Notes under the pieces: generated by a model
What the model was told of the DNA's origin: nothing
The model's database searches: none
The model's input: only the letters and a program-made list of their open reading frames with translations
Source: Bacillota bacterium
GTDB lineage: Bacteria > Sysuimicrobiota > Sysuimicrobiia > Sysuimicrobiales > Segetimicrobiaceae
Assembly (NCBI GenBank): GCA_021324255.1
Contig: JAJPJL010000101.1
Location: 1 to 32,657, forward strand
Length of the DNA: 32,657 nucleotides
Direction: 5' to 3'
In this document: positions 30,268 through 32,657 of the stretch, piece by piece
Layout: every line of letters begins with the position of its first letter
Position numbering within the stretch: the first letter of the stretch is position 1
Program-made: the position numbers and the translations under genes

Positions 30268-30291
30268 CCAACCGCTACGGAGGTGATCACC

Positions 30292-30723
30292 GTGACACTG
30301 CGTTCGATGTTCCGCGGACCGGGTTCCAAGCTGGTGCTCGTGTGCGCCGCCTCGTTGATGCTGAGCGGCGTGCCGGCGTACGCCGATTCGGGCGGAGGCT
30401 ACGGGCAAGCCCCCTACGGGTACGGCGCCCCGTACGGGAACGGATCGTGCCAGCAGCCCGGCGGCTGGAATGGCTGGAATGCCGGGAACGGGTGCCAGAA
30501 CGGCGGCGGCTATCGCGGTACCCCCGATCAACCGTATCGCGGCCCGCGGAACGCGCCGAGCTACCAGGATGACCGCCGGTACGGCGCGCCGCAGTACGAC
30601 AACCGGCGGTACGTCGGCCCGCAGTACAACGACTGCCAGGACCCCAATCGCGGCGGCTGCCAGCCACCGGCGCCGCAGCCGAACGATCAGCGCAACATTC
30701 ACGACGACGGCAACAGCAAGTAG
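30292..30723 (+). CDS. Secreted Gly/Tyr/Gln/Asn-rich low-complexity protein, unknown function
   Basis: A protein of 143 residues with a Sec signal peptide (SKLVLVCAASLMLSGVPAYA, cut before DSGGG). The mature part of ~110 residues is rich in Gly, Tyr, Pro, Gln and Asn (YGQAPYGYGAPYGNG, two copies of an RRYxxPQY motif near DDRRYGAPQYDN) and holds four cysteines. It has no recognisable fold and resembles disordered cell-surface or matrix proteins. GTG at 30292 was chosen because it has correct spacing from GGAGGTGATC; an in-frame GTG at 30283 lies inside that site. It is 73 nt before the permease gene on the same strand. Confidence 0.75.
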   Translation: MTLRSMFRGPGSKLVLVCAASLMLSGVPAYADSGGGYGQAPYGYGAPYGNGSCQQPGGWNGWNAGNGCQNGGGYRGTPDQPYRGPRNAPSYQDDRRYGAPQYDNRRYVGPQYNDCQDPNRGGCQPPAPQPNDQRNIHDDGNSK

Positions 30724-30796: not shown

Positions 30797-31897
30797 GTGA
30801 GCCCGTGGGGACGCCGCGTGGACGAACTCACTGCACGCCGGGAGCATGCCTCGCCATCGGAATCACCGTATCTCTGGGGCGTGCTCCTCTTTTTTCTTAC
30901 CACGATCGTCGGCCTCTACTACGCCAAGTGGATGCCGTATTTCCATCGGGCCCTCACCGCCGCCGCGACCCATAGTCTCGGACCCTCGATCGTGAGCGGC
31001 AAGGCCGCGGTGCCGCCCGCCGTGGGATGGACGGCGGCTTGGTCGTACACGGTGGCGTACGCCGGCGCCGTGTGGCAGGCCCTGGTCGTGGGCCTCCTGG
31101 TGGGATCGGGCATCCAAGCGCTGCTGCCTCGGGCCTGGCTGACCCGGTTCCTCGGGCGCGCCGGCTTCACAACCACCGCCCTTGCGGGAGCCGTATCGAT
31201 TCCGTCCATGATGTGAACATGCTGTGCGGCCCCACCGGCGGTGGGGCTGGCGAAGAGCCGGGCGTCCACCGGCGCCGTTCTCGCGTACTGGCTCGGCAAC
31301 CCCATGCTCAATCCCGCGACCTTGATCTTCCTGGGCTTCGTCCTCGGCTGGCGATGGGCGGCGTTGCGCGCCGCCACCAGCATCCTCCTCGTCCTCGGCG
31401 TTGCGTATCTGGCTGAGCGGTTCGTGGCGGGGCGCGCGGCCCGGCCCGCGGCGCCGGCGCCAGCCGTCCCCGACGCCGCGTCCGATCGCCGTCCGCTCCT
31501 CGTCCGGTGGGCGAGCGCGTTCGGGCAACTCGCGGTCGGGCTGGTCCCGGAGTACTTTGTGATCGTGGTCGTGCTCGGGGCCGTGCGCGCCTGGCTCTTT
31601 CCCGCGATGACCCCGGCGATCGGACACAGCCTGTGGTTGATCGTGGGCCTTGCACTGGCGGGGACCCTGTTCGTGGTGCCCACCGCCGGAGAGGTTCCGA
31701 TCGTGCAGACGCTCCTGGCGTTCGGTCTCGGCGCGGGAGGCGCCGGGGCGCTCTTGGTGACCCTGCCGCCGGTGAGCCTGCCGTCGCTCGTCATGGTCGG
31801 ACGCGCCGTGCCCGCTCGGGCGCTGGCGTTCGTCGCCGGCTCCGTGGCGGTGCTGGGCGTCCTGACCGGGCTCGCCGCCCTGGTGCTCAGGCTCTGA
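30797..31897 (+). CDS. ArsP/YraQ-type permease (DUF318, PF03773-like), candidate selenoprotein with in-frame TGA
   Basis: A polytopic membrane protein of 366 residues if the TGA at 31214-31216 is read through as selenocysteine (residue 140). The sequence on both sides belongs to one protein in one frame. Before it are helices around YLWGVLLFFLTTIVGLYYA and YAGAVWQALVVGLLVGSGIQ, then GAVSIPSMM; after it come TCCAAPPAVGLAKSRASTG, AVLAYWLGNPMLNPATLIFL, and a second half with VPTAGEVPIVQTLLAFGLGAG. Relatives of this family carry Cys-Thr-Cys-Cys-Ala-x-Pro here, so the TGA replaces the first Cys, leaving Cys142 and Cys143. Some members (ArsP) export trivalent organoarsenicals; the substrate here is unknown. 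GTG 30797 is the assumed start, GTG 30818 the alternative. Without recoding, the gene would be split into a 139-residue and a 218-residue ORF, the latter starting in mid-motif. Confidence 0.8.
31214..31249 (+). promoter_or_regulatory. SECIS-like element: TGA codon plus downstream hairpin inside the permease gene
   Basis: TGA (31214-31216) is followed after 10 nt by the arm CGGCCCCACC (31227-31236), the loop GGC (31237-31239) and the arm GGTGGGGCTG (31240-31249): ten consecutive pairs, one of them G-U. Twenty nucleotides separate the TGA from the apical loop, and the loop begins with G. Bacterial SECIS elements, as I recall the published models, are stem-loops directly downstream of the UGA with a G among the first loop bases and this order of spacing. 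Only comparison with relatives or a SECIS search can confirm it. Confidence 0.65.
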
Positions 31898-31959: not shown

Positions 31960-32657
31960 ATGCTCAGGCAGTGGCTCGACGTGGCGCCGAGCGACCTTGC
32001 GGAGTGGGTCACGGACGCGCGGCGCCGGACCGTGGAACTGGCGGCCGACCTCACGGACGCCCAGCTCATGGGGCCGCGCCTGCCCATCGTGAATCCCTTG
32101 CTGTGGGAAATCGGACACATGGCGTGGTTTCAGGAAAAATGGGTGCTCCGGCACGTGTGCGGCGAGCCGCCGATCCGCGGCGACGGGGATGCGCTCTACG
32201 ACTCCTCGGCGATCCCGCATGACGCGCGCTGGGACCTCCCGCTTCCGGCGCGGGAGGCGACGCTCGCGTACGCCTACGCCGTCCGGGATCGCGTCCTCGA
32301 CAAGCTCCGCGCCGAACCGCACGAGCAGCTCGTGTACCATGTGCTCTACTCCGTCTTCCACGAAGACATGCACACGGAGGCGTTTACGTACACGCGACAG
32401 ACGCTCGCGTACCCCGCGCCGCGTTTTTCCGACGCCCCGAGCGCGATCCCCCGCACCGGCGGGGGGCCGCTGCCCGGCGACGCGCCCCTGCCCGGAGGCG
32501 CGCTGATGCTCGGCGCGGCTCCCAACGGGCCCTTCGCATTCGACAACGAGAAATGGGCCCACCCGGTGGAGGTTCGCCCGTTTGCGATCGCGCGGGCGCC
32601 CGTGACGCAGGCCGAGTTCGCCGCGTTCGTCGAGAACGACGGATACCGGCGGCGCGA
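31960..32657 (+). CDS. EgtB/SenA-like DinB-FGE (SUMF1) non-heme iron enzyme, partial
   Basis: The 5' portion, 232 codons, of a gene that runs off the window. ATG at 31960 follows GGGGAGGTG. The N-terminal DinB domain has WEIGHMAWFQEKWVLRH and HEDMHTEAFTYTRQ, giving the three histidines of the HX3HXE iron site found in EgtB. From about residue 185 an FGE-sulfatase domain begins (GALMLGA, FAFDNEKWAHPVEV, FAIARAPVTQAEFAAFVEN). EgtB joins cysteine or gamma-glutamylcysteine to hercynine for ergothioneine; its homologue SenA uses a selenosugar to make selenoneine. The first-His motif here (LWEIGHMAWFQEKW) looks to me closer to the SenA-like WxxGHxxWFQExW than to the EgtB-like KWHxxHTTWFFE, but this is from memory. 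It lies 62 nt after the permease stop on the same strand. Confidence 0.85.
   Translation, partial: MLRQWLDVAPSDLAEWVTDARRRTVELAADLTDAQLMGPRLPIVNPLLWEIGHMAWFQEKWVLRHVCGEPPIRGDGDALYDSSAIPHDARWDLPLPAREATLAYAYAVRDRVLDKLRAEPHEQLVYHVLYSVFHEDMHTEAFTYTRQTLAYPAPRFSDAPSAIPRTGGGPLPGDAPLPGGALMLGAAPNGPFAFDNEKWAHPVEVRPFAIARAPVTQAEFAAFVENDGYRRR

Follow-up and report, generated by a model that had tools for sequence, protein, structure and literature searches.

The window analysed here is a stretch of 32,657 nucleotides, and the locus of interest lies at its downstream end. The gene permU occupies positions 30797–31897 of the forward strand and encodes a YraQ-type ArsP_1 permease predicted to contain selenocysteine (Sec), as judged from its read-through translation, Pfam PF03773 and its homologues. 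It is followed on the same strand by senA, the gene for selenoneine synthase (31960–32657; NF041186, 247 bits over 232 aa), of which only the 5′ part is present, as the contig ends there. Directly upstream of permU, and also on the same strand, nucleotides 30283–30723 encode a small protein rich in Gly, Tyr and Asn, which is probably secreted and matches no Pfam family. A tRNA-Ser (GCT) gene opens the contig, at nucleotides 16–107 of the window.

The initial annotation described two open reading frames in the same frame, split only by the TGA at 31214–31216. Read through this codon, permU is a single continuous frame and encodes one 366-aa protein counted from GTG 30797, with its stop codon TGA at 31895–31897. 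The absence of any further lesion was also confirmed: the TGA, at residue 140 in this count, is the sole internal stop. Based on the sequence VDELTARR, which is conserved in the orthologue from the same genus, translation probably begins at GTG 30818 instead, and the Sec would therefore be residue 133. The TGA, read as Sec, corresponds to the first residue of U-T-C-C in the motif MM[U/C]TCCAAP (Met-Met-Sec-Thr-Cys-Cys-Ala-Ala-Pro; 31208–31234, forward strand), which is recognized by its invariance in the alignment. The downstream frame had been considered useless by itself because its first start codon was placed inside this motif. It does lack the conserved motif, because that start, GTG 31241, falls just 3′ of the motif; the position inside the motif is thus not correct.

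The read-through protein scores 84.2 bits against Pfam ArsP_1 (PF03773), above the gathering cut-off of 32.3. Its nearest NCBIfam models are SaoE (NF040736; 36.1 bits, equivalog cut-off 325) and the SO_0444 Cu/Zn efflux family (NF033936; 33.6 bits, equivalog cut-off 300). Both scores are far under the cut-offs, and PermU is a member of neither family. The nearest annotated relatives are permeases annotated as YraQ, with ~46% identity over 79% of the protein.

TGA is present at exactly the Sec codon of permU in three genomes: the source genome, a genome of the same genus (G004), and a genome of the same family (G006). PermU is ~75% identical to the G004 orthologue and 47–49% identical to the G006 orthologue. 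All other close homologues examined (~80) have Cys at this codon, in agreement with the earlier proposal that the TGA replaces the first Cys of a Cys-Thr-Cys-Cys motif. The sequence MMCTCCAAP is seen in nearly all of these ~80 homologues, which belong to Bacillota, Pseudomonadota and Actinomycetota, and two have MMCTCCSAP. Residues M138, M139, C/U140, T141, C142 and C143 are invariant among 29 aligned PermU homologues. Scattered stops, which had been named as a sign of decay, are absent from the aligned relatives; the site is occupied by either Cys or TGA. Between the source genome and G004, dN/dS is ~0.18 (0.145/0.805) downstream of the TGA and ~0.24 (0.211/0.880) upstream, indicating that purifying selection after the TGA is at least as strong as before it.

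The TGA-containing motif was also searched for outside the phylum, with no match in the 398 genomes of the phylum of Paradesulfitobacterium and none in viral contigs. Relatives of PermU found in a search of plasmids are all below 60% identity. A reassigned genetic code was considered and rejected: TGA serves as the stop codon of permU itself (at 31895) and of other genes.

The source genome contains all four components for which a genome search had been suggested, selA, selB, tRNA-Sec and selD. The tRNA-Sec has the anticodon UCA (74 bits), and selA and selB are adjacent on another contig (C83). SelD, on contig C92, has an in-frame TGA at its catalytic position (ACAGUASKLSP), as it does in most genomes of the family, and an FdhA-like protein on contig C84 has an in-frame TGA at its Sec site (SCNRTUH). 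In another genome, G007, two SelB-like and two SelD genes are found (contig C34 and a further locus), and one SelD with Cys (GGGCGCK) adjoins SelB; this suggests either contamination or another Sec locus that was acquired separately.

Termination is the default reading of a stop codon until experiments say otherwise, and an in-frame stop in a MAG might mean that permU is a recent pseudogene whose TGA arose by nonsense mutation and is a true stop. Such a mutation would have to coincide at one codon in three genomes whose permeases are down to ~48% identical, and would have to be followed by a sequence still under purifying selection, in a genome with the Sec machinery and two more genes with UGA at Sec sites. 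We regard a pseudogene as very improbable. The shared TGA codon, the selection downstream of it, the Sec machinery and the UGA codons of SelD and FdhA together indicate that permU almost certainly encodes a selenoprotein, with Sec at UGA 31214–31216.

A SECIS-like hairpin is located at 31227–31249 of the forward strand, 20 nt after the UGA. Its stem consists of 10 uninterrupted pairs (31227–31236 with 31240–31249), its loop is GGC (31237–31239), and its folding energy is −19.0 kcal/mol. The initial annotation had noted ten pairs, a loop starting with G and a SECIS-like spacing, and all three hold. In the published model of bacterial SECIS elements, the loop is 3–9 nt with G in its first two positions, the stem is 4–16 bp, the spacing is 16–37 nt, and the minimum free energy is −7.5 kcal/mol or lower (PMC13188914). 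The permU hairpin of the source genome agrees with this model in every constraint, a favourable outcome for the SECIS check proposed earlier. Only 0.12% of 5000 synonymous recodings of the source protein equal it (p = 0.0012). A looser definition, the energy of a generic hairpin, gave p values of 0.06, 0.12 and 0.33, the first of them for the source gene; a more stringent test that considers loop and spacing was therefore applied. With codon conservation and the Sec machinery, the fit to the SECIS model supports the reading of the permease TGA as Sec.

The hairpin of G004 has the same loop and spacing as that of the source genome, with a stem of 8 bp (p = 0.027), and also fits the model. The hairpin of G006 has an interrupted stem, CCGG-U-GGC, with the loop CGUGA at 23 nt and −11.1 kcal/mol; it is no better than synonymous shuffles and fits the model only if the interrupted stem is allowed. 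The source FdhA gene has a similar hairpin, with the 7-bp stem CGUCUCC and the loop GGUCU at 18 nt. In the Sec genes of the source genome and G004, the consensus Val of CCAAPVAVG is replaced by Pro. When Val is kept, none of 5000 recodings reaches the observed hairpin energy, and the replacement itself therefore seems to serve the hairpin.

The origin of the sequence from a MAG also raises the possibility of a sequencing or assembly error, the real codon being TGC or TGT. TGA is also present at this codon in other genomes, which were assembled independently, and the best hairpin among 80 Cys homologues reaches −9.5 kcal/mol, far weaker than the −19.0 kcal/mol of the source gene. An error at this codon is the least probable of all explanations considered here, close to negligible.

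The window stops inside senA, and for this reason the link to selenoneine was missed in the initial annotation. The start of contig C100 overlaps the window end exactly over 107 nt; it carries the rest of senA, followed by senB and egtD. In the source genome, senA starts 62 nt downstream of the permU stop, and SenB (selenosugar synthase) on C100 scores 390 bits (cut-off 300). The order permU-senA-senB-egtD is found on one contig in G004 and in G006, with 513 and 533 bits for SenA (equivalog cut-off 420), 386 and 398 bits for SenB (equivalog cut-off 300), and 372 and 380 bits for EgtD (equivalog cut-off 291), respectively. Adjacent senA and senB equivalogs are thus seen in G004 and G006, and in the source genome across a contig break, with SenA split over two contigs. 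The gene senC, encoding selenophosphate synthetase, is not in the source sen cluster; SelD sits on contig C92.

Among the 43 genomes of the phylum, SenB is present in three, and these coincide exactly with the genomes that carry the TGA permease. If the two were independent, full coincidence would have a probability of 1/12341, a value that ignores kinship; the three genomes are of one family, and two of them are from one genus. Around the 80 nearest homologue loci, no sen genes were found except at L020 (Centralia_MAG_233), which is the same contig as in G004. A permease of the PermU family is absent from nine sen loci in Pseudomonadota, so PermU does not belong to selenoneine pathways in general. 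Several senB loci of Pseudomonadota (L154, L155, L157 and L158) adjoin apparent ABC transporter genes for an ATPase, a permease and a binding protein, and three of these loci encode a fusion of SelD with a dehydrogenase-like domain. Transport functions may recur among sen loci.

It could be argued that PermU is a real selenoprotein that neighbours the sen genes by accident, as only three genomes have this arrangement and the gap between permU and senA is roughly 0.4 kb in G006. Order and strand are the same in G004, in G006, whose permease is ~48% identical to PermU, and in the source genome across the contig break, and the co-occurrence with SenB is exact (3/3 versus 0/40). We consider an accidental neighbourhood improbable.

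Several known systems resemble PermU in part. A Sec form of the SO_0444-family Cu/Zn efflux transporter with the motif UxC (NF033936, WP_014809615.1) is annotated in GenBank and listed in a 2026 review (PMC13188914). It belongs to the ArsP_1 superfamily like PermU, and its Sec, which opens a CxC motif, corresponds to Sec140 as judged by the motif. Sec in ArsP_1 is thus not unprecedented, and the earlier suggestion that Sec is new to this permease family fails for the superfamily; the PermU subfamily is distinct by score (~34 bits, where membership would require 300), and a link to selenoneine is unmentioned in PMC13188914. SaoE is weakly homologous to PermU (36 bits) and has a selenium-linked neighbourhood, but its operon is a different one and PermU scores far under the cut-off of 325; SaoE is also not among the Sec-containing Sao proteins in the review (PMC13188914). 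The same review lists a Sec form of the YeeE/YedE thiosulfate transporter family (motif GUxSG), which is, like PermU, a multi-span transporter with Sec at its motif, although the family (PF04143) is unrelated. Escherichia coli YraQ and the permeases annotated as YraQ are nearest to PermU; the close homologues examined have Cys where PermU has Sec. The organoarsenical exporter ArsP shares with PermU the Pfam family ArsP_1 and a Cys motif of the CxC type. No ars genes were identified in the permU operon.

The SenA and SenB equivalogs, above cut-off, are shared with senABC of Variovorax paradoxus (PMC10891094). The permU operon differs from senABC in that its cluster has no senC and has egtD and a Sec permease in addition; SelD of the source genome, encoded outside the sen cluster, is itself a Sec-containing protein. 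The selenoneine-pathway literature found describes enzymes, and a text search of one such paper revealed no transporter. A Sec-containing transporter in a selenoneine operon is unreported in the literature searched, with an earlier mention possible in Haft and Gwadz 2023 or Haft and Tolstoy 2025. A selenoneine operon that includes a Sec permease appears to be new.

The AlphaFold2 model of PermU (pLDDT 84, pTM 0.84) has broken helices at PSMM-U-TCC (124–133 and 141–153) and at FVVPTAGEVP (279–291 and 299–308). In this model, each of the two sites could form the tip of one of two inverted repeats. Structural comparison gave weak matches to elevator-type carriers such as INDY, Pho90, NaS1 and ArsB (VIA Z 9–12, rmsd 4–7 Å). 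Foldseek with the PermU model gave no significant fold match (E > 0.1), and none of the solved structures is related to PermU by sequence.

The computed results comprise the Sec codon and its machinery, purifying selection, the hairpin and the link to the sen operon, and a mechanism can be proposed around them. SelB and tRNA-Sec, with the SECIS hairpin 20 nt downstream, would insert Sec at UGA 31214–31216. The gene permU would be transcribed as the first gene of the operon permU-senA-senB-egtD, and selenophosphate would be supplied by the Sec-containing SelD, which is encoded outside the operon. PermU might be a carrier with two inverted repeats, with U-T-C-C at the broken-helix tip of one and T-A-G-E-V-P at that of the other, and the selenolate and the two thiols might form a soft-ligand site for the cargo. 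Based on the operon context, PermU would most probably carry a selenium species, which could be selenide or an organoselenium compound, selenoneine itself, or a soft-element adduct, either into or out of the cell. The supply of selenium or its product would be managed jointly with selenoneine synthesis. We consider it likely that permU is a Sec permease heading a selenoneine operon and passing a selenium species or a soft-element adduct via U-T-C-C. It can be speculated, with rather less confidence than doubt, that PermU is a dedicated transporter of selenium or selenoneine in which Sec itself is the ligand for the selenium cargo, forming a feed-forward link between selenoproteins and selenoneine.

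PermU might also be a real selenoprotein that exports soft metals or metalloids, such as As(III), organomercury or Cu, in the way of ArsP, SO_0444 and SaoE. Its place in the operon would then be due to the binding or detoxification of such species by selenoneine as well, not to the movement of selenium. Selenoneine interacts with methylmercury, and the named ArsP_1 relatives are exporters of metals or metalloids, with SaoE and SO_0444 as the nearest models, though far under cut-off. The genes downstream are those for selenoneine, not ars or mer, and the Sec form is confined to genomes with senB. A soft-metal exporter is therefore possible but rather doubtful.

According to the 2026 review, prokaryotes have no known transport system that is specific for selenium and of high affinity (PMC13188914). 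As the product of the first gene of a selenoneine operon, with a distribution in the phylum that matches that of senB exactly, PermU is a concrete and testable candidate for such a transporter. PermU also suggests a role of Sec as a transport ligand instead of a redox catalyst. With a predicted Sec permease gene at the head of a selenoneine operon, selenium itself would seem to be employed in the handling of selenium.

The Cys forms in G005 and G007 and the Cys paralogues in the source genome and G004 are located away from the sen operon. The source paralogue (contig C57, 45000–59000) adjoins DoxD-like, radical SAM/SPASM and cupin genes. Similar neighbours are seen beside the Cys forms in the source genome, G004 and G005, and this neighbourhood looks like a separate, uncharacterised system. 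In the phylogeny, the Sec genes of the source genome and G004 are sisters (100/97), within the group that holds the Cys paralogues of the family, and the Sec gene of G006 branches separately and has a long branch. Constraining all three Sec genes to one clade is rejected (p-AU 0.004), a result made uncertain by the long branches. This leaves two histories: two origins of Sec at this site, both in this operon setting, or a Sec-containing ancestor from which Cys copies descended. Given the rejection of one common Sec clade, the permU site may have gained Sec twice within one bacterial family.

Other ArsP_1 or SO_0444-like loci of the phylum were also inspected for stops, and two of them contain such codons. 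An ArsP_1/SO_0444-like locus in G041 has two TGA codons, neither at its CSC motif. In G003 (contig C143), an SO_0444-like permease (161 bits) is interrupted by TAG, and it could be a pseudogene.
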